In this document: positions 20,533-57,256 of the stretch, in pieces | Position numbering within the stretch: the first letter of the stretch is position 1 | Layout: each line of letters starts with the position of its first letter | DNA from: Fibrobacter sp. UWR2 | Lineage (GTDB): Bacteria > Fibrobacterota > Fibrobacteria > Fibrobacterales > Fibrobacteraceae | Direction: 5' to 3' | DNA length: 64,000 nt | Assembly: GCF_002210285.1 (NCBI RefSeq) | Contig: NZ_MWQE01000003.1 | Span: forward strand, 186,001 to 250,000 | Position numbers and translations under genes: made by a program | The notes under the pieces: generated by a model | The model's input: only the letters and a program-made list of their open reading frames with translations | Told to the model about the DNA's origin: nothing | Databases searched by the model: none

Positions 20533-23500
20533 ATGACAAAGGCAAAATTCATCAAATTCATCATTGCGTCGGTGCTAGCCATCGTCGCTCTCTTCTTGCC
20601 CTACGAATCCCTCGGATTCGATGCCGCAAGCCCCATGGGACTCCTGAATCCGCTCGAAATCCGCGTCATCGGCGTTTTCGTCATGGCCGCGCTTTTCTGG
20701 ATCCTCCAACCGTTCCCGATTTGGTCCACCTCGGTGCTCGTCATCGTCTTGATGATTGTCACCATGTCGGATTCTTCCCTCATGCCGTTCCGCGTGGACG
20801 GTGTGTCGATGATTAGCCACAAGTCCATCATGGGGACCTTTGCGAACCCCATCATCATGCTCTTCCTGGGCGGGTTCTTCCTGGCCGCTGCCGCGACCAA
20901 GTACAAGATGGACCTGAACCTGGCCCGCGTGCTCCTGAAGCCCTTCGGCAAGAACCCGAAGTTCGTGCTCCTCGGCCTCATGCTCATTACCGCCGTGTTC
21001 TCCATGTTCATGAGCAACACCGCTACCGCCGCCATGATGCTTGCCATCCTCGCTCCGGTGCTCAAGCTCTTCGACGAAGATGACCGCGGTAAGGCCGCCT
21101 TTGCCCTTGCCATTCCGCTCGGTGCCAACATCGGTGGTATGGGTACCCCGATTGGTACGCCTCCTAACGCCATCGCCCTCGGTGCCCTGAACGACGCCGT
21201 TGCCCGTGGCGACCTCGTTGCGAACCCCGTGACCTTCGGTCAGTGGATGGAATTCGGTATTCCGTATGTGCTTATTCTTATGGTCGTTGCCTGGCTTTTG
21301 CTGGTGAAGATTTACCCCATCAAGATGAAGGAGATGGTCCTGAACATCGAAGGTGCCGGCAAGTTCGATACGAGCCCCAAGGCCATCATCGTGTACATTA
21401 CCTTTGCCCTGTGCGTGATTTTGTGGGTGATTGGCAAGGATGGTATCTGGATCATTCCGGGCCATGGCATTAACGATAACTCGATTGCTATGATCCCGAT
21501 GGCCGTGTTTGCCTTGACTGGCGTGATTACCAAGAAGGACTTGAACGCGATGAGCTGGGACGTGCTCTGGCTCGTGGCCGGTGGTTTTGCCCTTGGTGTT
21601 GGCCTCAATGCGACGGGCCTTGCCGCTCACTTGATCAAGACGATTCCGTTTGCAAGCTGGTCTCCGATTGTCCTGATGATTGGCTGCGGTGTCATCTGCC
21701 TTTTCATGGCGAACTTCATGAGCCACACATCCACTGCGACTCTGCTTGTTCCGATTCTCTGCGCCGTGGGTATCGCTTGCCAGGACAATCTCGTTGGCCT
21801 CGGTGGTGTGACCGCCCTGCTCGTGTCTGTTGCGTTTGCTAGCTCTCTCGGTATGAGCCTCCCGATTTCTACTCCGCCTAACGCTCTTGCGCATTCTACA
21901 GGTTATACCGATACCCGTGGAATGGCCATTACGGGCGTTGTCATGGGTCTTGTCGGCCTCGTGCTCTCCTGGGTGATGATGATTTTCCTTGCCAAGGTGA
22001 ACTTCTTCGGAACTCCGGTGCCGAAGGCCGCTGAAGCCGTTCCGGCAGCTCCGGTTGTAGAGAAGGTTGTCGAACAGCCTGCTCCGGAAGCACCTACTGC
22101 AGTCGTTGCCGATTCGTCTGTTGTTGATTCTACTGTTGTCGATAGCGCTGCTGTTGATTCCACGGCTGCTGATACCGCTGTTGTGGATAGTGCTGCCCAG
22201 GCCGCTGCCGATAGCGCCGCCGCCGCTCAGGCTGCCGCTGATTCTGCTGCCGCGAAGGCTGCTGCGGACAGTGCCGCCGCTGCTCAGGCTGCTGCCGATA
22301 GCGCTGCCGCTGCTCAGGCCAAGGCCGACTCCATCGAGCAGGTGAAGGCTGCCGAAGCTGCTGCCCTGGTTGCCGCTGCCGAAGCAAAGAAGGCTGAAGA
22401 AGAAGCCAAGAAGGCCAAGCAGGATAGCATTGCTGCCGCGAAGAAGGCCAAGGCCGATAGCGTCGCTGCTGCTAAGAAGGCTGCCGCTGAAGCCAAGAAG
22501 GCAGAGGCCGAAAGGAAGAAGGCTGAAGCTGCCGAAGCAAAGAAGAAGGCTGCTGAAGAACGCAAGGCTGCTGCCGCTGCCAAGAAGGCCAAACAGGATA
22601 GCATCGCCGCTGTGAAGAAGGCCAAGGCCGACAGCGTCGCTGCCGCCAAGAAGGCTGCCGCTGAAGCCAAGAAGGCTGAAGAGGCCAAGAAGAAGGCTGA
22701 AGCCGAAGAGGCGAAGAAGAAGGCCGCTGAAGAAAAGAAAGCCGCTGCCGCCGCCAAGAAGGCCCAGCAGGATAGCATCGCCGCAGTGAAGAAGGCCAAG
22801 GCCGACAGCGTCGCTGCCGCCAAGAAGGCTGCCGCCGAAGCCAAGAAGGCTGAAGAGGCCAAGAAGAAGGCTGAAGCCGAAGAGGCGAAGAAGAAGGCCG
22901 CTGAAGAAAAGAAAGCCGCTGCCGCCGCCAAGAAGGCCCAGCAGGATAGCATCGCCGCTGTGAAGAAGGCCAAGGCCGACTCCATCGAGCAGGTGAAGGC
23001 TGCCGAAGCTGCTGCCCTGGTTGCTGCCGCCGAAGCCAAGAAGGCCGAGGAAGAAGCCAAGAAGGCGGAGGCCGAAAAGAAGAAGGCCGAAGCTGCTGAA
23101 GCTAAGAAGAAGGCCGCCGAAGAAAAGAAGGCTGCTCTTGAAGCTAAGAAGGCAGAAGAAGCCAAGAAGAAGGCCGAAGCTGCCGAAGCAAAGAAGAAGG
23201 CTGCTGAAGAACGCAAGGCTGCTGCCGCTGCCAAGAAGGCCAAACAGGATAGCATCGCCGCTGTGAAGAAGGCTAAGGCCGACAGCGTCGCTGCCGCCAA
23301 GAAGGCTGCCGCTGAAGCCAAGAAGGCGGAAGAAGCTAAGAAGAAGGCCGAAGCTGCCGAAGCTAAGAAGAAAGCCGAAGAAGAAAAGAAGGCTGCCGCT
23401 GAAGCCAAAAAGGCAGAAGAGGCCAAGAAGAAGGCCGAAGCTGAAGAGGCTAAGAAGAAGGCCGCCGAAGAAAAGAAGGCTGCCGCTGAAGCCAAGAAGG

Positions 23501-24591
23501 CAGAAGAAGCCAAGAAGAAGGCTGAAGCTGCTGAAGCAAAGAAGAAAGCTGAAGAAGAAAAGAAAGCCGCAGCTGCCGCTAAGAAGGCTCAGCAGGATAG
23601 CATCGCCGCAGTGAAGAAGGCCAAGGCCGACAGCGTTGCCGCTGCCAAAAAGGCAGCCGCTGAAGAAAAGAAGGCTGCTCTTGAAGCCAAGAAGGCAGAA
23701 GAAGCCAAGAAGAAGGCCGAAGCCGAAGAGGCTAAGAAGAAGGCCGCTGAAGAAAAGAAAGCCGCTGCCGCCGCGAAGAAAGCTCAGCAGGATAGCATCG
23801 CCGCAGTGAAGAAGGCTAAGGCCGACAGCGTCGCTGCCGCTAAGAAGGCCGCCGCCGAAGCCAAGAAGGCAGAAGAAGCCAAGAAGAAGGCCGAAGCTGA
23901 AGAGGCTAAGAAGAAGGCCGCCGAAGCTAAGAAGGCCGAGGAAGCCAAGAAGAAGGCCGAAGCTGCTGAAGCAAAGAAGAAGGCTGAAGAAGAGAAGAAG
24001 GCCGCAGCTGCCGCAAAGAAGGCCCAGCAGGACAGCATCGCTGCTGTGAAGAAGGCTAAGGCCGACAGCGTCGCTGCTGCTAAGAAGGCCGAGGCAGAAA
24101 AGAAGAAGGCTGAAGCTGCTGAAGCAAAGAAGAAAGCCGAGGAAGAAAAGAAAGCCGCTGCTGCCGCCAAGAAAGCCCAGCAGGATAGCATTGCCGCTGT
24201 GAAGAAGGCTAAGGCCGATAGCGTCGCTGCCGCCAAGAAGGCTGCCGCCGAAGCCAAGAAGGCAGAAGAGGCCAAGAAGAAGGCTGAAGCCGCTGAAGCA
24301 AAGCGCGCAGAAGCCGAAGCCAAGAAGGCTGAAGCTGAAGCAAAGAAGGCAGAAGCCGAAGCAAAGAAGGCCGAGGCCGAAGCAAAGAAGGCTGAAGCAG
24401 AGGCCAAGAAGGCCGAAGCAGAAGCAAAGAAGGCTGAAGGCGAAGCTGCCCCTGCAGCACAGCCGGCCGCAAAGCCTGCCGAAGCCAAGAAGGCCGCTCC
24501 CGCAGCAAAGCCCGCAGAAGCCCCGAAGGCTGCCAAGCCTGCCGAAGCCAAGCCCACTGCAAAGCCGGCCGCCGCTCCCGCCAAGAAGTAA
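20533..24591 (+). CDS. SLC13/DASS-family sodium:anion symporter fused to a long Ala/Lys/Glu repeat tail
   Basis: 1352 residues from the ATG at 20533. Residues about 1-500 form a complete DASS transporter with many membrane segments and both paired family motifs: SNTATAAM with TPIGTPPNAIA, then SHTSTATLL with LPISTPPNALAHSTG. These bind sodium and a di- or tricarboxylate or sulfate. After an Ala/Pro/Val linker with DSSVVDS repeats (about 505-555), about 800 residues consist of A, K, E, D, S, Q and R, with a 58-residue period (DSIAAVKKAKADSVAAAKKA...KKAQQ). Such TolA-like sequence should form a very long single helix or coiled coil, and could span the periplasm or reach the cell wall. The family normally ends after the transporter, so the tail is extraordinary. 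Confidence 0.85.
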   Translation: MTKAKFIKFIIASVLAIVALFLPYESLGFDAASPMGLLNPLEIRVIGVFVMAALFWILQPFPIWSTSVLVIVLMIVTMSDSSLMPFRVDGVSMISHKSIMGTFANPIIMLFLGGFFLAAAATKYKMDLNLARVLLKPFGKNPKFVLLGLMLITAVFSMFMSNTATAAMMLAILAPVLKLFDEDDRGKAAFALAIPLGANIGGMGTPIGTPPNAIALGALNDAVARGDLVANPVTFGQWMEFGIPYVLILMVVAWLLLVKIYPIKMKEMVLNIEGAGKFDTSPKAIIVYITFALCVILWVIGKDGIWIIPGHGINDNSIAMIPMAVFALTGVITKKDLNAMSWDVLWLVAGGFALGVGLNATGLAAHLIKTIPFASWSPIVLMIGCGVICLFMANFMSHTSTATLLVPILCAVGIACQDNLVGLGGVTALLVSVAFASSLGMSLPISTPPNALAHSTGYTDTRGMAITGVVMGLVGLVLSWVMMIFLAKVNFFGTPVPKAAEAVPAAPVVEKVVEQPAPEAPTAVVADSSVVDSTVVDSAAVDSTAADTAVVDSAAQAAADSAAAAQAAADSAAAKAAADSAAAAQAAADSAAAAQAKADSIEQVKAAEAAALVAAAEAKKAEEEAKKAKQDSIAAAKKAKADSVAAAKKAAAEAKKAEAERKKAEAAEAKKKAAEERKAAAAAKKAKQDSIAAVKKAKADSVAAAKKAAAEAKKAEEAKKKAEAEEAKKKAAEEKKAAAAAKKAQQDSIAAVKKAKADSVAAAKKAAAEAKKAEEAKKKAEAEEAKKKAAEEKKAAAAAKKAQQDSIAAVKKAKADSIEQVKAAEAAALVAAAEAKKAEEEAKKAEAEKKKAEAAEAKKKAAEEKKAALEAKKAEEAKKKAEAAEAKKKAAEERKAAAAAKKAKQDSIAAVKKAKADSVAAAKKAAAEAKKAEEAKKKAEAAEAKKKAEEEKKAAAEAKKAEEAKKKAEAEEAKKKAAEEKKAAAEAKKAEEAKKKAEAAEAKKKAEEEKKAAAAAKKAQQDSIAAVKKAKADSVAAAKKAAAEEKKAALEAKKAEEAKKKAEAEEAKKKAAEEKKAAAAAKKAQQDSIAAVKKAKADSVAAAKKAAAEAKKAEEAKKKAEAEEAKKKAAEAKKAEEAKKKAEAAEAKKKAEEEKKAAAAAKKAQQDSIAAVKKAKADSVAAAKKAEAEKKKAEAAEAKKKAEEEKKAAAAAKKAQQDSIAAVKKAKADSVAAAKKAAAEAKKAEEAKKKAEAAEAKRAEAEAKKAEAEAKKAEAEAKKAEAEAKKAEAEAKKAEAEAKKAEGEAAPAAQPAAKPAEAKKAAPAAKPAEAPKAAKPAEAKPTAKPAAAPAKK
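22190..24440 (+). repeat. tandem coding repeat, about 174 bp (58 codons) with shorter sub-repeats
   Basis: Copies of GACAGCGTCGCTGCCGCC and GATAGCATCGCCGC recur at roughly 174-bp steps (for example 22773 and 22947), with insertions and deletions of smaller KKAEEAKKKAEA units. Synonymous variation between copies shows they have diverged while the amino-acid pattern is kept. The 3' end (about 24305-24440) is a simple run of AEAKKAE heptads. Confidence 0.85.
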
Positions 24592-48694: not shown

Positions 48695-49978
48695 TTATTC
48701 CTTTATATGAGTTTGACCTTTCCAAATAATATTCCCCCAACCTCGATTCCATTGGGCAACATCTTCTTGTCTGCTTGCGGACAATTGACTAATTGCGAAA
48801 GCAATTACATGCGGAACGATATCAAAATCTCGTTGGCAGGTTAAAAAGTTTCCAATGCCTGTTGCAAAGGAAACATCGTACAACCCCTTTGCAAGAAAGT
48901 GGTCACATAATGTTAAAGAAATTTTTTTCGTTTCTCCTTCTTTTATTTTGAATGTTTGAGTATTAGAAACGCTACCAATTGGAAAACCGTCTATAGAGAA
49001 GACCGTTAAATTAATACGACATTCGTTTACAGTTTTATTTGCATAAACAGTAAAAACAAATTCAATAGGTTCGTCTGAGGCAAACTCATTGCTTTTCTTC
49101 GCAAATTCAATAGAAAAAAATTGGACGTCTTTTGTGCTGTCTAAATTTTCCATACATGCAATTTCTTTTTTCCATATTTTTTTATAAGCGTTCTGGTTAG
49201 AGTAGAAATCTACGGCATCTTCTACATTACCATCAAACGCCACTTGCCCCTGATTAAGCACAATCCCGCGTTTACACAAATTCTTCACTGCGCCCATATT
49301 GTGGCTCACGAACAGCACGGTCCTGCCTTCGCCGCGGCTTACGTCCTGCATCTTGCCGATGGCCTTCTTCTGGAATTCGGCGTCGCCCACGGCGAGCACT
49401 TCGTCAACCACCAATATTTCGGGTTCCAGGTGTGCCGCGATGGCGAACCCGAGGCGGACGGTCATGCCGCTGCTATAGCGTTTCACGGGGGTGTCCAGGT
49501 AGCGTTCGCAGCCGCTGAAGTCCACGATTTCGTCGAGCTTGCGGGTAATCTCGGCGCGGCTCATGCCCATGATGGCGCCGTTCATGTAGATGTTCTCGCG
49601 GCCGGTCATCTCTGGGTGGAATCCGGTGCCCACTTCGAGGAGGCTCGCGATGCGGCCCCGTGCGCGGATGGTGCCGGTAGTGGGGGCGGTCACGCGGCTC
49701 AGCAGCTTGAGGAGCGTGCTCTTGCCGGCGCCGTTCCTGCCGATGATGCCCACGACGTCGCCCTGTTCCACCTTGAAGTTGATATCCTTCAGGGCCCACA
49801 CGTATTCGCTTGCGCCCTTGTGCGCGCGGTCGTTGACTTCGCCCACCTTGAGGTAGGGGTCCTCGCGGCGCAGCACCTTGGTCTGCCAGAACCTGTTCAG
49901 GTCGTGGCTGAGCGTCCCGGTGCTCACAAGCCCCAGGCGGTACTGCTTGCTGATGTTCTCGAACTCGATCGCGGTCAT
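48695..49978 (-). CDS. wzt: polysaccharide ABC transporter ATP-binding protein with C-terminal glycan-binding domain
   Basis: 427 residues. The N-terminal about 245 residues are an ABC ATPase: GRNGAGKST Walker A, RYSSGMTVRLGFAIA signature, ILVVDEVLAVGD Walker B, SHNMGAV switch. Residues about 265-427 are beta-rich as in Wzt, where this domain binds the modified chain end. The 5' part (49240-49978) is GC-rich like the backbone while the 3' part is AT-rich like the O-antigen genes, which suggests exchange of the specificity domain. The permease gene wzm lies 6.4 kb upstream, separated by an island. The first half is duplicated as a pseudogene at 52731-53240. Confidence 0.93.
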   Translation of the reverse strand: MTAIEFENISKQYRLGLVSTGTLSHDLNRFWQTKVLRREDPYLKVGEVNDRAHKGASEYVWALKDINFKVEQGDVVGIIGRNGAGKSTLLKLLSRVTAPTTGTIRARGRIASLLEVGTGFHPEMTGRENIYMNGAIMGMSRAEITRKLDEIVDFSGCERYLDTPVKRYSSGMTVRLGFAIAAHLEPEILVVDEVLAVGDAEFQKKAIGKMQDVSRGEGRTVLFVSHNMGAVKNLCKRGIVLNQGQVAFDGNVEDAVDFYSNQNAYKKIWKKEIACMENLDSTKDVQFFSIEFAKKSNEFASDEPIEFVFTVYANKTVNECRINLTVFSIDGFPIGSVSNTQTFKIKEGETKKISLTLCDHFLAKGLYDVSFATGIGNFLTCQRDFDIVPHVIAFAISQLSASRQEDVAQWNRGWGNIIWKGQTHIKE

Positions 49979-50010
49979 GGTCTTTTCAAGGTCTTTAATA
50001 AACCGCCCTG

Positions 50011-50041
50011 GATTGCCACGGCCTTCGGCCTCGCAATGACG
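50011..50041. repeat. GGATTGCC...GGCAATGAC-type palindromic repeat
   Basis: GATTGCCACGGCC paired with GGCCTCGCAATGAC; same family as 39775-39807 and, in copy B, 53272-53305. Confidence 0.75.
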
Positions 50042-50069
50042 TTGGCGGTCATCTTGTTGAGTAATATAG

Positions 50070-50155
50070 ATTAAAAGGGGGTGCCGGGAACTTGATTTTG
50101 AAAAAATGCGCGAAAAACGCGCATTTTTCGCTGTCCCGGCAGGTCCCTTAAAATG
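50070..50155. repeat. large imperfect palindrome in the duplicated module
   Basis: Outer arms TTAAAAGGG...TGCCGGGA and TCCCGGCA...CCCTTAAAA enclose a perfect inner hairpin AAAAATGCGCG / CGCGCATTTTT. It is conserved in copy B (53335-53420) with changes on both arms. It may act as terminator or as the end of a mobile module. Confidence 0.65.
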
Positions 50156-50204
50156 GTGTTATTGGTGCCGACCCTGGGATTGAAAAAAATTTGTCTCAGA
50201 CCTA

Positions 50205-50233
50205 TTGACAAACAGGTTTTGAAAAAGTATATT
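50205..50233 (+). promoter_or_regulatory. promoter TTGACA-17-TATATT (copy A)
   Basis: Consensus boxes TTGACA (50205-50210) and TATATT (50228-50233), spacer 17, followed by a GGAAGGAG site before the ATG at 50318. It probably drives the ATPase/nuclease pair. Confidence 0.75.
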
Positions 50234-50317
50234 GTAGTGCACAAGCGTGCAGAAGCCGTGCGCAAAAATTGATCTAAGACCCGCAATTTCAAGCCTGTTT
50301 GCGGGAAGGAGTGAAAA

Positions 50318-50410
50318 ATGAGCGAAAGTAAAGGCAAAATTCTGGTTTTGAGAAACCAACGGGTTGTTTTGGGTTGTGGCGTGGCTGACGGGGGTGTATA
50401 TGTTAACTAG
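50318..50410 (+). pseudogene. truncated ORF6N-domain gene start
   Basis: 30 codons (MSESKGKILVLRNQRVVLG...) with a strong GGAAGGAG site, ending at a stop at 50408. ILVLRNQRVVL matches the usual beginning of ORF6N (phage KilA-type) domain proteins, which then continue for about 100 residues that are absent here. It is probably a remnant left when the following genes were inserted. Confidence 0.4.
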
Positions 50411-50456
50411 ATTTGGGGAAAACGTGCACAACCACAATATCCACGAGAAAGTGCCA

Positions 50457-51758
50457 ATGGAATTAAACATTGAAAATTTCGCGAAGATAAAGTCGGCCAA
50501 GATTAAGTTGGACGGCATAACTGCGATTGCCGGTTTGAACGATACTGGGAAAAGTACCGTTGGTAAGATTCTTTATGGAATTTTTAGTGCTGTTGCCAAT
50601 ATAGATAAGTCCGTTGTTCAAGCGAAGAAGCGTAACATTCGACAAGAAGTCGTTTCGCTTCTTCATCAGAATAATCTGAATTCGCATGGAAGTATATCTC
50701 AAAGTGTTTTTAGATATACGCTAGATTTTATTGAAGAGTTGGTTGTTTCAGAAAATAAAAAAGATGCCGTTGATTTATATCTACGGGATCTTGAAAAAAA
50801 GCAAAAAGAGTTTGAAATTACATTCAATGAAGATTTGAAATCGCAAATTACCGAGTCGATAAAGAAAGTCCTAACTATTCCAGATGAAAAAGTTGCGCAA
50901 TCGGTTGTTTCGCTAGCTTTCCAAAAGATTTTCAATGAACGAATTAATAATATTGACAACCCAGATGCCGATGCTATTGTCGGATTGCTGGTAAAAAAAA
51001 GGTATGTTGAATTAGTATTTAAGGATGATTCTCTTGAGTCCATGCGTAGAGAAATTTCCTTGGTAAATTCCGCCACGTATATTGACAATCCATTCGTATT
51101 GGACCGATTGAATCAATTGACAATTTATGAGAATCGTGAATCTCCATGGGTAAGGGATTTAACAAATAAACTCGTTTCCTTAAATGAGAAAAGAAGGAAT
51201 GAAACCTTAGAGGACGAGGCTCTTTCAAGAATGATTGTTAGCGAGGGCTTGCAAAAGATTCTTGATGAACTGGATGAGGTTGCTCCTGGTTCTATTGATA
51301 ACACCCATGATGGATATTTGTACAGAAGGGGAAAAAGCGGAAAAGCCTTGTCCGTCAATTCCTTGTCAACGGGTTTAAAAGCTTTCGCAATTATCAAACG
51401 CCTCCTTTTGAATCAAGGCTTGAAAGAAAGGGATGTTCTAATTTTGGACGAACCCGAGGTTCATTTGCATCCTGAATGGCAGCTGAAGTATGCCGAAATC
51501 ATCGTTCTTCTTCAGAAAACGTTCAATTTGACTGTTGTTGTGACGACGCACAGTTCCCATTTTTTGGAAGCCTTGGATTTGTATTCCAAAATCCACAAGA
51601 CAAGTGATGTTTGCTCATACTACTTTGCTTCTTGTGGTCAGGATTCTGATTTAGTCTCGTTTGAAAATGTGACGGGGCAATTGGAAAAGATTTACAGCAA
51701 TCTCGTTCAACCGAGTTTTTTTATTGATGAAATCAAAGAAAAACACGGGGTGGAATGA
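50457..51758 (+). CDS. AAA/ABC-type ATPase (SMC-like), first gene of a candidate defence pair
   Basis: 433 residues from the ATG at 50457 (ELNIENFAKIKSAKIKL is the normal start of the family; the frame is open to 50364). Walker A GLNDTGKST at about residue 26, a coiled central region (about 70-250), an ABC-like signature NSLSTGLKAFAII near residue 300, Walker B VLILDEPEVHLHPEW, and a switch TTHSSHFLEAL. It belongs to the OLD/RecF-like AAA_15/AAA_21 group but lacks a fused TOPRIM nuclease. It overlaps the next gene by 4 nt. AT-rich. Gabija, PARIS, Septu and retron defence ATPases are relatives in architecture. Confidence 0.8.
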   Translation: MELNIENFAKIKSAKIKLDGITAIAGLNDTGKSTVGKILYGIFSAVANIDKSVVQAKKRNIRQEVVSLLHQNNLNSHGSISQSVFRYTLDFIEELVVSENKKDAVDLYLRDLEKKQKEFEITFNEDLKSQITESIKKVLTIPDEKVAQSVVSLAFQKIFNERINNIDNPDADAIVGLLVKKRYVELVFKDDSLESMRREISLVNSATYIDNPFVLDRLNQLTIYENRESPWVRDLTNKLVSLNEKRRNETLEDEALSRMIVSEGLQKILDELDEVAPGSIDNTHDGYLYRRGKSGKALSVNSLSTGLKAFAIIKRLLLNQGLKERDVLILDEPEVHLHPEWQLKYAEIIVLLQKTFNLTVVVTTHSSHFLEALDLYSKIHKTSDVCSYYFASCGQDSDLVSFENVTGQLEKIYSNLVQPSFFIDEIKEKHGVE

Positions 51759-52423
51759 TGAGTATGTATGAGTCGTTTGTGAATTTGCTGACAAACTATT
51801 GTCGGCAAGTTGGCTGTCCGATACAAATAGAGAAATCTTTGCAGGATTCATCGGAAGACGATGCCAATGCGGTAAAGATTTTTATGTCAAAATACAAAGA
51901 CTTGAATTCTATTTCGATGGATGCGATTGCTCATGATGTTGTGAGAAAAATTCATTTTGCAGGCACAACAAAAGAGGACGAATCTCCGGCGTCAGTAGAT
52001 TCTTTTTTGATAGATTCAAATGGCTTTTGGTATTTTATCGAATTTAAAAATCAAAAGATTGGCGCGTCAAAAGAAAAGTGCATTGAAAAGTCTTATGCCA
52101 ATGTCTATTGGTTACTGAAAATTTTAGAGGAACTGAAAAATAACGATTCATTTTCGTTCGAATCTTTTAGTTCATGCCCTTCTGGCATTTCTCCACTAAA
52201 TTTTGTCAAAGAATATTGCAAATTTATTTTGGTCATAGCAGATGGTAAAGATGATCTTGAAATATACAAGATACGAGAGGCTAGAAAGGCTAAAAAAAGA
52301 TGGCCTGATTCTGATTGGGCAAAATATATGAAAAAATTAGAATCATATATTTATAAATCTGCAGAAGTGTATAATGTTAAACAGTTTGACCGAGAGTTTG
52401 TTAAAAATTTTAGATACTCCTAA
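51755..52423 (+). CDS. probable PD-(D/E)XK nuclease, partner of the ATPase
   Basis: 222 residues; ATGA overlap with the ATPase gene. SVDSFLIDSNGFWYFIEFKNQK near residues 70-92 has the D-x13-E-x-K spacing of PD-(D/E)XK nucleases, preceded by a helix with DAIAHDVVRKIHF. The C-terminal half (RKAKKRWPDSDWAKYMKKLESY) is basic and helical. No named family recognised. As an ATPase-coupled nuclease it would cut or degrade nucleic acid when the ATPase senses a trigger; this is inference from the gene pair. Confidence 0.6.
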   Translation: MMSMYESFVNLLTNYCRQVGCPIQIEKSLQDSSEDDANAVKIFMSKYKDLNSISMDAIAHDVVRKIHFAGTTKEDESPASVDSFLIDSNGFWYFIEFKNQKIGASKEKCIEKSYANVYWLLKILEELKNNDSFSFESFSSCPSGISPLNFVKEYCKFILVIADGKDDLEIYKIREARKAKKRWPDSDWAKYMKKLESYIYKSAEVYNVKQFDREFVKNFRYS

Positions 52424-52647
52424 GAGATGATTTGCTTCTGTGAAATCTTGCGTTAGGGACGGAGGTGGCGAAGCCATTCGGAGGGCCGCTTGTCAACAAC
52501 TCTCGGCCCTCTGAATCCTTCGTCTTCGCTCAGGACAGGCTCGAAAATCGCCATGCGAGGCGGCAATTTTATACCGCGACGGCCCGACCCCGGCCTGCCG
52601 GGGAAACGCCCAAGAAATTTAAGATAATTCGGGAAGGCCGGTCATTT
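52424..52647. other. gene-free GC-rich stretch after the ATPase/nuclease pair
   Basis: Contains a stem GGAGGGCCG / CGGCCCTC (about 52478-52515) that may terminate the pair, and a small palindrome CCCCGGCCTGCCGGGG. No gene seen. Confidence 0.4.
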
Positions 52648-52727
52648 GACGCCTACGGCGTCTGTGGCTGCGGCTCGATCATGTCGGTACGCAAGCGTCC
52701 CGCCGCGACACTCGCCTTGCACACTAC
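52648..52727. repeat. palindromic insertion family, member 1 (boundary of the wzt duplicate)
   Basis: Begins GACGCCTACGGCGTC and ends ...CACTCGCCTTGCACACTAC, the same termini as the minus-strand reading of the insertion at 53073-53151. It stops within a few bases of where homology to wzt begins. Confidence 0.55.
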
Positions 52728-52894
52728 TCCGGGTGGAATCCGGTGCCTACTTCGAGGAGGCTCGCGATGCGGCCCCGTGCGCGGATGGTGCCGGTGGTGG
52801 GGGCGGTCACGCGGCTCAGCAGCTTGAGGAGCGTGCTCTTGCCGGCGCCGTTACGCCCGATGATTCCCACGACGTCGCCCTGTTCCACCTTGAA

Positions 52895-52960
52895 AACCCG
52901 ATGAGCGAGAGCCGCGGCCAAACTTGTTTGGCCATGGCCGAGCGATAAGGGTTTCTGCAA
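52895..52960. repeat. 66-bp palindromic insertion in frame
   Basis: Absent from the intact wzt copy. Arms of about 29 nt (AACCCGATGAGCGAGAGCC... and the complement of ...GGCCGAGCGATAAGGGTTT) around GGCCAAAC-TT-GTTTGGCC. It adds [22 protein letters not shown] without breaking the frame. Confidence 0.8.
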
Positions 52961-53072
52961 GTTGATGTCCTTCAGGGCCCACACGTATTCGCTTGCGCCC
53001 TTGTGTGCGCGGTCGTTCACTTCGCCCACCTTGAGGTAGGGGTCCTCGCGGCGCAGCACCTTGGTCTGCCAG

Positions 53073-53151
53073 TAGCCCGAAGGCGAGTGCAGCAAGAAAG
53101 AACTTGTTCTTTCTTATTGCCGAGCCAAGGAGCGGACGCCGTAGGCGTCAA
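53073..53151. repeat. 79-bp palindromic insertion breaking the frame
   Basis: Absent from the intact wzt copy. Core AAGAAAGAAC-TT-GTTCTTTCTT with GC-rich flanks containing GCGAGTGC and GCCGAGCC, outer end GGACGCCGTAGGCGTC. Related to 52648-52727 at both ends. Confidence 0.8.
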
Positions 53152-53469
53152 AACCTGTTCAGGTCGTGGCTGAGCGTCCCGGTGCTCACTAGCCCCAGGC
53201 GGTACTGCTTGCTGATGTTCTCGAACTCGATCGCGGTCATGGTCTTTTCAAGGTCTTTAGTAAACCGCCCTGGATTGCCACGCCTCTATCGAGGCTCGCA
53301 ATGACGTTGGCGGTCATCTTGTTGAGTAATATAGATTAAAAGGGACTGCCGGGAACCCAAATCGGAAAAAATGCGCGAAAAACGCGCGTTTTTCGCTGTC
53401 CCGGCAGGTCCCTTAAAATGGTGTTATTGGTGCCGACCCTGGGATTGAAAAAAATTTGTCTCAGACCTA

Positions 53470-53498
53470 TTGACAAACAGGTTTTGAAAAAGTATATT
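53470..53498 (+). promoter_or_regulatory. promoter TTGACA-17-TATATT (copy B)
   Basis: Identical boxes and spacer to copy A, followed by GGAAGGAG and the ATG at 53583. Confidence 0.7.
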
Positions 53499-53582
53499 GT
53501 AGTGCACAAGTGTGCATAAACCATGCACGAAAACTGATCAAAGACCCGCAATTTCAAGCCTGTTTGCGGGAAGGAGTGAAAG

Positions 53583-53687
53583 ATGAAAGAAGGTGTGACC
53601 GTTGTGTCGGTTAAGAAACCTAGAAATCCCCTTATAAGAACCTGCTCAAGCCGCGAATGTACATCATTCTGGGGTAAAAGCGATTGA
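53583..53687 (+). pseudogene. short ORF after promoter copy B, probably a gene remnant
   Basis: 34 codons (MKEGVTVVSVKKPRNPLI...) with the same strong ribosome-binding site as 50318 but a different sequence after the ATG. No family recognised; it ends 8 nt before the next promoter. Confidence 0.3.
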
Positions 53688-53694
53688 ATTATAC

Positions 53695-53723
53695 TTGACG
53701 GGGATTTGTAAATTATGTATATT
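53695..53723 (+). promoter_or_regulatory. promoter TTGACG-17-TATATT of the toxin-antitoxin pair
   Basis: TTGACG at 53695-53700 and TATATT at 53718-53723. The preferred ATG (53736) is 12 nt beyond the -10 box, so the toxin message is probably leaderless. The in-frame ATG at 53715 lies inside the promoter and is excluded. Confidence 0.6.
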
Positions 53724-53735
53724 ATAAGTATAGAG

Positions 53736-54023
53736 ATGAAGGTGCGGTTTGATCCGGGGAAGGCTCTCGTGGTCAAGCAGAAGCATAGCATCGATATGGA
53801 ATCAGTAAGGCAAGAAATCCTTGCGGGCCGATTTGTCACTAGGATGGTTAATAACCAAACAGAACATAAGGGTCAAAGAATGTTTCTTGTTCTTGTGGAT
53901 GGGTATGTTCATTGCGTTCCGTTTATTGAGGAAAACGATGGAACATATTTCCTTAAGACAGCTTTCAAAAGCCGTTTGTATCAAAGGAGGTTTGAAAATG
54001 GCGAACTCGAAATTCATAGATGA
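53736..54023 (+). CDS. BrnT-like toxin of a type II toxin-antitoxin pair
   Basis: 95 residues. VRFDPGKALVVKQKHSIDMESVRQEI resembles the BrnT/DUF497 opening (a Lys-His pair followed by a helix), then a beta hairpin (MFLVLVDGYVHCVPFIEE) and basic end (KSRLYQRRFENGELEIHR), as in RelE-fold RNases. It overlaps the antitoxin gene by 26 nt. Start chosen from the promoter position. Confidence 0.65.
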   Translation: MKVRFDPGKALVVKQKHSIDMESVRQEILAGRFVTRMVNNQTEHKGQRMFLVLVDGYVHCVPFIEENDGTYFLKTAFKSRLYQRRFENGELEIHR

Positions 54024-54285
54024 GCCGATTGATGACGAAGAACGCGCTTTGATGGAAGCGGTGGAAAATGATGAAACTGTTCCGCTCCCGCAAGAAGAGG
54101 AAGAACGGATTCGGGCTGACATTATGTCTGCTTCGGCGAAGAACATCACCATCCGTATGCAGCTTGATGATTTGAACGGCATCAAGAAAATGGCGAAGGC
54201 CGCGGGCATGCCTTACCAGACGCTCATCAATTCCATCATCCACCGTTACGTGACGGGCGGCATCGTGTTCAAAGTCGCGGTGTAG
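53998..54285 (+). CDS. BrnA/CopG-like antitoxin
   Basis: 95 residues from the ATG at 53998, 6 nt after AAAGGAGG, inside the 3' end of the toxin gene. An acidic N-terminal half (toxin-binding) precedes ITIRMQLDDLNGIKKMAKAAGMPYQTLINSIIHRYVTG, the ribbon-helix-helix pattern shared with the BrnA at 29228. A perfect 14-bp palindrome, TACCGAATTCGGTA, lies just downstream at 54295-54308. Confidence 0.75.
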   Translation: MANSKFIDEPIDDEERALMEAVENDETVPLPQEEEERIRADIMSASAKNITIRMQLDDLNGIKKMAKAAGMPYQTLINSIIHRYVTGGIVFKVAV

Positions 54286-55041: not shown

Positions 55042-55365
55042 ATGCAGGTTGTGTTCGCAGACAAAGAATTAGCTCGCTGCGCGGGCGACAGGGCCTATGC
55101 TGTGCGAAAGTTGGGGCAACGTCGTGCGGATGTTTATTCGGTAAGAATAGACGCCTTGCTTCGAGCCGTTGATTTGGATTCATTGAAATATGTGGCGGGG
55201 CGTTTTCATGAATTGGTTGGCGACCGTGCGGGGCAATGGGCGTGCGATTTGGATCATCCGTATCGGCTTATATTCAAGCCGGTTTTAAATAGTGACGGGA
55301 ATATTGTCGGATTGATTGTGGAACAAACTGTTTCTATCTTAGAAATTGTAGATTATCATAAGTAG
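55042..55365 (+). CDS. higB: HigB/RelE-type toxin
   Basis: 107 residues: VVFADKELARCAGD, then RRADVYSVRIDALLRAVDLDSL, the central FHELVGDRAGQWACDLDHPYRLIFKP and a C-terminal IVEIVDYHK-type strand, as in HigB killer proteins that cleave mRNA on the ribosome. AGGA lies 4 nt before the ATG. The antitoxin gene starts 8 nt after its stop. Confidence 0.85.
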   Translation: MQVVFADKELARCAGDRAYAVRKLGQRRADVYSVRIDALLRAVDLDSLKYVAGRFHELVGDRAGQWACDLDHPYRLIFKPVLNSDGNIVGLIVEQTVSILEIVDYHK

Positions 55366-55373
55366 GAGCTCTT

Positions 55374-56372
55374 ATGCAGGTTTATAGATGTGATGAATTG
55401 GCTGTTGTGGTGCCTCCTGGGCGGCATCTTGCTGAAAAACTTGAAGAAATGGGCCTAGATGCGAATGACTTGGCTGCGCGTATGGGGTATACGCCCAAGG
55501 CGGTGAATGATATTTTGCAGGGCAATTGCCGCATTATGCCGGAAGTCGCAATCATGTTGGAGATGGTTACAGAAATCCCAGCTTCGTTTTGGCTGCGTAG
55601 CCAAATTGCTTATGATGAATACCTTTCACGCGAACTTATTAAGGCAACGCTTGAAAACCAACCCTTGTGGCGAAAATCTTTCCCGCCAGAATTGAATGCT
55701 CGTGATTGGGTGGAAAAAGACAAAGATAATGAGAAATCGGGCCTTTCGCTCCTCAAATTTTTCGCGGTGGCGTCCCCCAAGGCGTGGGACGGTTACTACA
55801 AGGATGCCCGCCTGAAGGTGGCGTTCCGCATTTCTCTTGCCGAGGTCAAGGACCCGTATGCCATGTCGGCATGGATTCGTCGGGGCGAGATTCTTTCGGA
55901 TCAGGACCCGATGGAAAAATTGGGACAGATTCCTGTTCGCAAGCGCCTAAAGGCTGCACTCCCCGAAATCATCGCGTTTGCGGCGGCCAACAAGGTGCGC
56001 CCGAAGGGCAAAAAACGCATTACCTACTGGACGCCCGAGGCGGAGGTTGTTGACGACTGTATGACGGGGCTGCAGGAACTATGCCGTAAAATTGGAATTC
56101 GCGTGCTGTTCGTGCAGAATTTCAAGAGCGCCCCTATACATGGTATGTATCGCTGGTACAAGGATGTGCCATTGATTCAGTTGCACGACCGTTTTAAAAA
56201 GCGCGAAACGATGTGGTTTACGTTCTTCCATGAGCTGGCGCATGTGCTGTATCACGGAAAGAAGGGTATTTGTCTGCAGAATATTGAAATTACGCACAAC
56301 TACCCCGAAAAAGAGGATGAGGCCAACTGCTTTGCGCAGAAATGCATGGTTGAAGCGGGATTTAAGGTGTAG
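55374..56372 (+). CDS. higA: HigA-type antitoxin fused to an ImmA/IrrE-like metallopeptidase domain
   Basis: 332 residues. Residues about 10-85 are an HTH (LAEKLEEMGLDANDLAARMGYTPKAVNDILQG) ending in the HigA segment EIPASFWLRSQIAYDEYL. After a linker, the C-terminal half carries WFTFFHELAHVLYH near residue 285, an HExxH zinc-peptidase motif with a following KEDEANCFA block, as in ImmA/IrrE proteins. Such fusions are longer than plain HigA (about 100 residues) and may use proteolysis to release the toxin. AGGAG site before the ATG. Confidence 0.85.
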   Translation: MQVYRCDELAVVVPPGRHLAEKLEEMGLDANDLAARMGYTPKAVNDILQGNCRIMPEVAIMLEMVTEIPASFWLRSQIAYDEYLSRELIKATLENQPLWRKSFPPELNARDWVEKDKDNEKSGLSLLKFFAVASPKAWDGYYKDARLKVAFRISLAEVKDPYAMSAWIRRGEILSDQDPMEKLGQIPVRKRLKAALPEIIAFAAANKVRPKGKKRITYWTPEAEVVDDCMTGLQELCRKIGIRVLFVQNFKSAPIHGMYRWYKDVPLIQLHDRFKKRETMWFTFFHELAHVLYHGKKGICLQNIEITHNYPEKEDEANCFAQKCMVEAGFKV

Positions 56373-56395: not shown

Positions 56396-57256
56396 TTACA
56401 CCGTGTCCATGAACGTGCGCTGTATCTTGTTGAATACGATTACGCCCAGGGCCAGGATGAAGGCGGCGAAGCCGGCGGTGTAGCCGAGGGCGGCCCAGCT
56501 GAATTCGCCTACGCCGAGCATGCCGAACTTGAACGTTTCCATGATGCTGGTGAGCGGGTTTGCCTGCATGAGCATTTTGAGGCGCGGATCCTCGATGGTG
56601 CTGAGCGGGTAAATCACTGGAGTCGCGTACATCCACAGTTGCACAATGAAGCTTAGTAAAAATGTGAGGTCGCGGTACTTGGTGGTGAGGCTGCTGAACA
56701 GTACGCCAAAGCCGAGTGCGAGCGCGGCGATGAGCGCTATGAGCACGGGTGTGAGCAGCGCGTACAAGTTAGGGTGCACGGGTGCGTCGGTGAAAATCAT
56801 GTAGTACGCGAACACCAGGAAAAAGAGCCCCATCTGGATGCTGAGTCGCACGAGGTTGCTCGTGACGGTGGCAAGCGGCACCACGAGGCGCGGGAAATAC
56901 ACCTTGCCGAACATGTTCGCGTTCTCGATGAAGGTTTTGCTCGTCTGGTTCAGGCATTCCGAAAAGTATGTCCAGAGGCAGATGCCGGCGAGGTAGAATA
57001 GCGGCTGCGGTAATCCGTCTGTCGAAATTTTCGCGATGCCGCCGAACACGACCATGAACATGACGGTGGTCATGATGGGTTGAATGAAAAACCACAGCGG
57101 GCCGAGAATAGTTTGTTTGTACCACGTGACGATATCGCGCTTGACGAACATACGGTACAAATCGCGGTACTGCCAGATTTCGCCGAAGTCTACCGAGAGT
57201 AGGCTCGACTTTGGCTTAATGACTGTTGTCCATTCGTTTGTCTGTGCCGCGGCCAT
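56396..57256 (-). CDS. wzm: polysaccharide ABC transporter permease
   Basis: 286 residues with six predicted membrane helices and the ABC-2 pattern of Wzm/TagG: DLYRMFVKRDIVTWYKQTILGPLWFFIQP at about 35-65, and KYRDLTFLLSFIVQLWMYATPVIYPLS near residue 195. It forms the channel that exports the finished glycan with Wzt. It ends the wecE-to-wzm transcript; in most genomes wzt follows directly, but here 6.4 kb of island lie between. Confidence 0.92.
   Translation of the reverse strand: MAAAQTNEWTTVIKPKSSLLSVDFGEIWQYRDLYRMFVKRDIVTWYKQTILGPLWFFIQPIMTTVMFMVVFGGIAKISTDGLPQPLFYLAGICLWTYFSECLNQTSKTFIENANMFGKVYFPRLVVPLATVTSNLVRLSIQMGLFFLVFAYYMIFTDAPVHPNLYALLTPVLIALIAALALGFGVLFSSLTTKYRDLTFLLSFIVQLWMYATPVIYPLSTIEDPRLKMLMQANPLTSIMETFKFGMLGVGEFSWAALGYTAGFAAFILALGVIVFNKIQRTFMDTV

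Follow-up and report, generated by a model that had tools for sequence, protein, structure and literature searches.

We report a two-gene operon in Fibrobacter sp. UWR2 that is probably a mobile phage-defence module, in which an ABC ATPase would serve as the sensor and a small nuclease as the effector. The operon lies in the window analysed here, a stretch of 64,000 nucleotides from contig NZ_MWQE01000003.1. The argument for defence draws on the family and fold of the ATPase, the conservation of an Asp-Glu-Lys triad in the nuclease, the constant pairing of the two genes, purifying selection, and carriage by phages, plasmids and defence islands. A first-pass annotation, made from the sequence alone, had proposed such a pair of an ATPase and a PD-(D/E)XK nuclease as a candidate defence system. 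Family, fold, pairing, selection and neighbourhood bear this out, but the composition has precedents in WonAB, in the 'OLD-ABC ATPase + novel REase' operons and in PD-T4-4.

The ATPase gene and its nuclease partner

The two genes overlap by ATGA (51755-51758) and are AT-rich (37-40% GC against 58-62% in the flanks), both as originally noted. Gene A (50457..51758, + strand) encodes a 433-aa ABC ATPase of the OLD/Rad50/SMC type, assigned by Pfam and fold matches. Its start is the ATG at 50457 or, given the overlap with a 30-aa upstream ORF (MSESKGKILVLRNQRVVLGCGVADGGVYVN; 50318..50410, + strand), the in-frame ATG at 50400, on which the 3' end of that ORF lies and which would give 452 aa. An upstream ORF of equal length and overlap, with 53% aa identity, precedes the homologous module in genome G026. 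In Pfam the protein matches AAA_15 (7.7e-18) and AAA_21 (2.6e-17). Since its best PADLOC matches, PD-T4-4_A (7.5e-23), NsnB, HEC-02A (2.4e-22), AriA and PtuA (3.7e-16), all fall at about 1e-22 to 1e-16, the class of the ATPase is clear and its subclass is not.

The ABC motifs that had been read in gene A are all present on the + strand: Walker A GLNDTGKS (residues 26-33; 50532..50555), with G26, N28, G31, K32 and S33 invariant in 11 homologues; the signature LSTGLK (residues 303-308; 51363..51380), with S, G and K invariant in the same set; Walker B VLILDE (residues 327-332; 51435..51452) followed by PEVHLHP, recognised by motif reading and by conservation in the 11 homologues; and the equally invariant H-loop histidine H365 (51549-51551). 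The coiled region said to lie between them did not hold up: in the AlphaFold2 model (pLDDT 75.5, pTM 0.77) a short insert of predicted helices (49-158) takes the place of a coiled coil of SMC length. This model aligns with the heads of Smc, Rad50, PtuA and OLD proteins at Z 15-18 over 235-297 residues. No TOPRIM domain follows the ATPase, in which Pfam recognises nothing but AAA domains and whose chain stops at residue 433. Nor was a partner of helicase, HNH, TOPRIM or methylase type found for gene A.

Gene B (51755..52423, + strand) encodes 222 aa and is assigned by conservation and a structure model as a PD-(D/E)XK-type nuclease. The D-x13-E-x-K signature already recognised in the first pass (D82 .. 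E96-F97-K98; 51998..52048, + strand) is its predicted catalytic centre. Across 10 homologues of 17-65% identity S33, D56, D82, E96, K98, N99 and K112 are invariant and S80 is nearly so, giving the family pattern TSxDD ... SxD-x13-hEFKN ... K. The protein has no significant match in Pfam, PADLOC or NCBIfam, a marginal one in PHROG (0.0041) and chance-level ones in PDB sequences; no relatives were found for it among plasmids and viral contigs, nor for A1 among the viral contigs. The structure model (pLDDT 74, pTM 0.78) was built on a five-sequence alignment and is of moderate confidence. Most of its top structural matches, EcoO109I (Z 5.0), FokI (4.9), VC1899 (4.8), Can2, Card1, DdmD, BstEII and PspGI, are PD-(D/E)XK enzymes, at Z scores (up to 5.0) that are low in absolute terms. 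Foldseek returned no match below E 0.001; a family missing from Foldseek or the VIA list was not counted as evidence. Because these individually weak matches agree on PD-(D/E)XK and the Asp-Glu-Lys triad is conserved, the model makes a PD-(D/E)XK fold likely. Both genes are under purifying selection, with dN/dS of 0.12 for gene A and 0.09 for gene B.

Distribution, mobility and the surrounding island

Homologous ATPase/nuclease pairs occur in six other Fibrobacterota genomes, five from the same genus (G026, G004, G001, G074 and G047) and one from a different family (G111). Within the genus the distribution is patchy, with the pair present in 6 of 80 genomes. In G074 the pair sits less than 200 bases downstream of RdrA/RdrB (RADAR), in G047 between HsdS and HsdR, and in G026 next to AbiEi/AbiEii. 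Distant relatives of the ATPase are carried by the human-gut phage MT835532, by viral contigs L023-L025 and by plasmids of Klebsiella and Acinetobacter, and in each case a small nuclease-like ORF adjoins the ATPase gene (that of L024 is broken by a stop codon, and a further viral contig, L026, ends too early to judge pairing). The nucleases of the Klebsiella and Acinetobacter plasmids are homologous to the gene B family (hhalign profile comparison 95.5%, E 1.3e-8), and two more plasmid-borne ATPase relatives are followed by nucleases of the PD-T4-4_B and PDC-M47B types.

The modules of the window genome (G000) and G026 share 2.15 kb at 82% DNA identity between unrelated flanks, and at the G026 module, too, part of an adjacent gene is duplicated in the flanks. 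Judged from these sequence comparisons, the module is horizontally mobile. Between G000 and G026 (L007) identity is 81-93% across most of the ATPase gene and 92-98% over its last part (51236-51735), then drops to 57-77% at the ATPase/nuclease junction, at 51736, and from the nuclease start onward; synonymous divergence rises from 0.42 in the ATPase to 2.63 (saturated) in the nuclease. Recombination with a breakpoint where the two genes meet is the simplest account of this pattern, and the nuclease appears to have been swapped for a diverged relative behind a near-constant ATPase. Such an exchange would amount to a natural experiment, in which one sensor is combined with different effectors.

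The flanks of the window module are duplicated, as had been claimed, in four blocks of 93-98% identity. The left copy (49610..50329) contains the 5' end of a wzt-like ABC-transporter gene, its upstream region and the structured leader described below. The right copy (52727..53594) has acquired two short insertions and ends in a second leader. The wzt-like gene itself is intact (48695-49978, - strand). The insertions, at 52895-52958 and 53073-53148 within the duplicated part of wzt, resemble small mobile or palindromic elements, as does an element (52465-52608) downstream of the nuclease gene. The toxin-antitoxin surroundings described in the first pass were recovered on weak to moderate Pfam matches: BrnT/BrnA-like genes (53715-54285) lie behind the second leader and are followed by HigB-like and HTH/ImmA-like genes (55042-56372). 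Next comes an ABC-2 permease gene (56396-57256), the presumed partner of wzt, and given the positions of these two transporter genes the island with the module and the toxin-antitoxin-like genes seems to have grown between them.

Two further observations concern this region and the wider window. Contig L001 (JAGCNL010000064.1), labelled a Salinivirgaceae MAG, matches the stretch that runs to 52608 at 97% identity; in it the end of the nuclease is identical over 66 aa (100%) and wzm has 88% DNA identity to that of the window. L001 is probably a misbinned Fibrobacter contig, or else reflects a recent transfer. At 22107-24446 the window holds a long imperfect tandem array with periods of 21, 87 and 174, which to judge by its codons probably encodes an Ala/Lys/Glu-rich helical repeat protein.

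A structured leader shared among operons

A sigma-70-type promoter, TTGACA-17-TATATT, precedes the module at 50205..50233 (+ strand) and agrees with the consensus at 11 of 12 positions. The consensus match reported earlier is therefore real, but this is no private promoter of the operon: it belongs to a leader that is repeated before many other operons. An identical second promoter lies at 53470-53498 within repeat copy 2, and the same layout of promoter and then leader is found before many leader copies in other genomes. Promoter-like sites as such are not above chance in the region (9 found versus 6.0 +/- 3.1 expected). The leader (50234..50320, + strand) comprises a first hairpin, a second hairpin (CCCGCAA / TTTCAAGCCTGT / TTGCGGG) and then an AAGGAG ribosome-binding site and ATG; its second copy (53499..53585, + strand) stands ahead of the BrnT/BrnA-like genes.

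Searching the genus with 141 bases around the promoter (50200-50340) gave copies in 43 of its 80 genomes. In an alignment of 26 leader copies, the -10 box is followed by two hairpins, and these by the ribosome-binding site. Around its conserved loop, UUUCAAGCNUGU, hairpin 2 has two neighbouring base pairs that change in a compensatory way (A-U/C-G and A-U/U-A); hairpin 1 is more variable. The covariation score of 0.209 compares with 0.091 for shuffled alignments (0 of 500 reach 0.209) and is far above slid controls; because these related copies are also the ones used to derive the structure, the covariation is strong evidence short of proof. Hairpin stability by itself gives no support (z -0.5 to -1.8), and the structure rests solely on covariation and position. 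With a covariance model the leader was found in 63 of the 80 genomes (35 of the 40 good ones), at up to 13 copies each and six in the window genome. Within the phylum it is limited to one family, occurring in these 63 genomes and in 6 of three sister genera. None of its Rfam matches exceeded the gathering score (two chance-level matches, E 0.44 and 0.72), and among open-licence papers no title or abstract of the Fibrobacter toxin-antitoxin literature mentions such a leader. The leader may be the new part of this system.

The genes behind the leader, which recurs in the window and at loci L138-L153 and L184-L223, were inspected for about 55 copies. All classifiable cargo is of toxin-antitoxin, defence or mobile type: AbiEi/AbiEii, BrnT/BrnA, YafQ/RelB, ORF6N, RhuM, YhcG/DUF1016, PDDEXK_2, AlbA_2, DUF4160/DUF2442 and addiction-module pairs. 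No housekeeping gene was recognised in this sample, in which some cargo is degenerate or unidentified and L212 and L214 are undecidable. Copies of the leader are frequently 1-3 kb apart. A second ATPase (PDC-M29A match 8e-61) is also among the cargo; the gene after it encodes a protein of 194 aa that has an ELK motif. One leader array, L224 (G060:C87:37500-43450), holds a PDC-M29A-like ATPase and the 194-aa ELK protein, which matches no PADLOC model, RhuM behind a second leader, and more genes. Some of the most frequent cargo is an unnamed pair, a 185-aa 'SGCVDIWLDEIVPCLKDTETGEIKETVVF' protein with a protein of 60-86 aa ending in 'ELTxEEIxQFK' (L185, L187, L189, L191, L208, L213, L153 and others). 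The members of this pair that were tested have no Pfam or PADLOC match, and we regard it as a candidate new toxin-antitoxin family.

The leader is present at the G000 and G026 modules and was not found at those of G004, G001, G074, G047 and G111, so it is no inherent part of the defence pair. In the window, the repeated flank stops at 50329, just beyond the leader ATG, and similarity to G026 rises right after, which suggests that cargo joins at the 3' end of the leader. Tentatively, and with more doubt than confidence, we propose that the Fibrobacteraceae leader RNA with its own promoter is a common control element and at the same time a seam for cargo exchange, forming an integrase-free cassette system that heads unrelated toxin-antitoxin and defence operons, among them at least two different ATPase-nuclease pairs. 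One signal would then open or close translation of many defence toxins through the leader.

LexA/SOS control of the leader was considered and rejected. Most copies read TGCACAAGTGAGTAG, a half site only, and the genome-wide pattern barely exceeds the reversed control (22 versus 15 strand matches). In the window, TGCACAAGCGTGCA / TGCACAAGTGTGCA occur within the leader copies and fit TGCNCN4GTGCA, the LexA box of Fibrobacter. The lexA gene of the window genome (G000:C5:27272-27285, L135) carries TGCCCAATTGTGCA between its -35 and -10 elements, likely an autoregulatory SOS box, and the palindromes in the window leader copies resemble it. For the window copy of the leader, LexA/SOS control is at most a possibility.

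Discussion

Pairs of an ABC ATPase and a PD-(D/E)xK nuclease have been described before, namely WonAB, the 'OLD-ABC ATPase + novel REase' operons and PD-T4-4 (PMC12137116). The nearest characterised analogue is WonAB from the WASA-1 prophage of Vibrio cholerae (Adams et al., 2025; PMC12137116). Its phage defence has been demonstrated and needs the ATPase and nuclease residues; infection is aborted, with translation blocked and DNA left intact, and WonB is toxic only when WonA is present and active, for which reason the authors disfavour simple sequestration (PMC12137116). By description it resembles our pair, being a two-gene operon in which an OLD-type ABC ATPase without TOPRIM is followed by a small PD-(D/E)xK nuclease. 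In both ATPases the H-loop histidine comes 33 residues after the Walker B glutamate (E300/H333 in WonA, E332/H365 in gene A). The two differ in host phylum and in the shared structured leader that drives the window operon; a published wonA primer had no match in IMG/VR. The 'OLD-ABC ATPase + novel REase' operons come from an in-silico survey of ABC ATPases (example Anaerovibrio lipolyticus), and the wider group, which includes WonAB, is otherwise known from prediction only (PMC12137116). Their gene order and domain composition are, as described there, those of the window pair, which probably falls in this group.

Other systems match in part. PD-T4-4_A is the best PADLOC match of gene A, and PD-T4-4 shares a nuclease with a D..xK signature, but gene B matches no PD-T4-4_B model at E up to 1, whereas the true PD-T4-4 of E. 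albertii, as a positive control, matches at 5.2e-107; the A3 profile reached 6% against the PD-T4-4_B/PDC-M47B alignment, a weak comparison given its two-sequence target. Among the candidate systems of PADLOC, HEC-02A matches gene A at 2.4e-22, and no HEC-02 or PDC-M29 model, HEC-02B included, matches gene B; the divergent G074 member weakly matches HEC-02B (3.7e-4) and PDC-M29B (0.0024). That the nuclease fits neither Gabija, PARIS nor Septu, as the first-pass annotation held, is upheld by PADLOC and Pfam. PtuA of Septu PtuAB and retron Ec78 belongs to the same ATPase class as gene A (PtuA models 3.7e-16; structure Z about 16), but its partner in Septu is an HNH nuclease, and gene B has D..ExK and no PADLOC PtuB or Pfam HNH match. 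Gabija and OLD are set apart by the C-terminal TOPRIM that gene A lacks and by a GajB-type helicase, which gene B is not, and PARIS by the absence of a PADLOC match for gene B as an AriB partner.

How could such a module work? By analogy with the family and with WonAB we infer dimerisation, complex formation, a trigger and a target. Gene A, as an OLD-class ABC ATPase, would form an ATP-dependent dimer and serve as both sensor and regulator, keeping the nuclease inactive or delivering it. An infection cue would switch the complex on, and activated gene B would cut nucleic acid, DNA or RNA, perhaps, on the model of WonB, tRNA or rRNA. The infected cell would stop and the population would be protected, so that the outcome, on the same analogy, is probably abortive infection. 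Expression would come from the shared promoter and structured leader, behind which toxin-antitoxin and defence cargo seems to be exchanged in this bacterial family.

The toxin-antitoxin neighbours and the shared leader would also fit a role in addiction or island maintenance. Gene B would then be a toxic nuclease that gene A neutralises, stabilising the island or its host element, with phage defence secondary or absent. Copies of the leader do drive bona fide toxin-antitoxin genes, BrnT/BrnA- and HigB-like genes adjoin, and Pfam describes AAA_21 as a putative AbiEii toxin. Nevertheless, the ATPase gene comes first and is of an OLD/Septu-like class, WonB toxicity in the analogue needs active WonA (PMC12137116), and other copies adjoin RADAR or sit within a type I restriction locus; we consider addiction unlikely. 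Restriction is a variant of the defence reading, and its probability therefore overlaps with that of our preferred explanation. Here the ATPase would recognise foreign or modified DNA and load gene B to cleave the invader without arrest of the host. The combination of a Rad50/SMC-like head with a PD-(D/E)XK nuclease, the DNA restriction enzymes among the closest structural neighbours of gene B and the copy between hsdS and hsdR all speak for it, but the operon has no methylase or specificity subunit and the nearest characterised analogue blocks translation with DNA intact (PMC12137116), and we give it perhaps a minor chance. A housekeeping pair for repair or recombination of the Rad50/Mre11 type seems very improbable: the best structural matches of gene A are indeed Smc and Rad50 heads, but a pair that no more than 6 of the 80 genomes in the genus contain, and that is horizontally mobile and carried by small plasmids and a phage, hardly suits such a function.

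A mobile defence module of sensor and effector is thus the explanation we prefer, and it would extend the class of ABC-ATPase/PD-(D/E)XK defence systems to Fibrobacter. The nuclease family is missing from Pfam, PADLOC and NCBIfam, and is for this reason overlooked by annotation tools. If the leader is regulatory, one RNA element would control many unrelated defence and toxin operons across a bacterial family, and its covariance model offers a sequence handle for new defence genes in these genomes.
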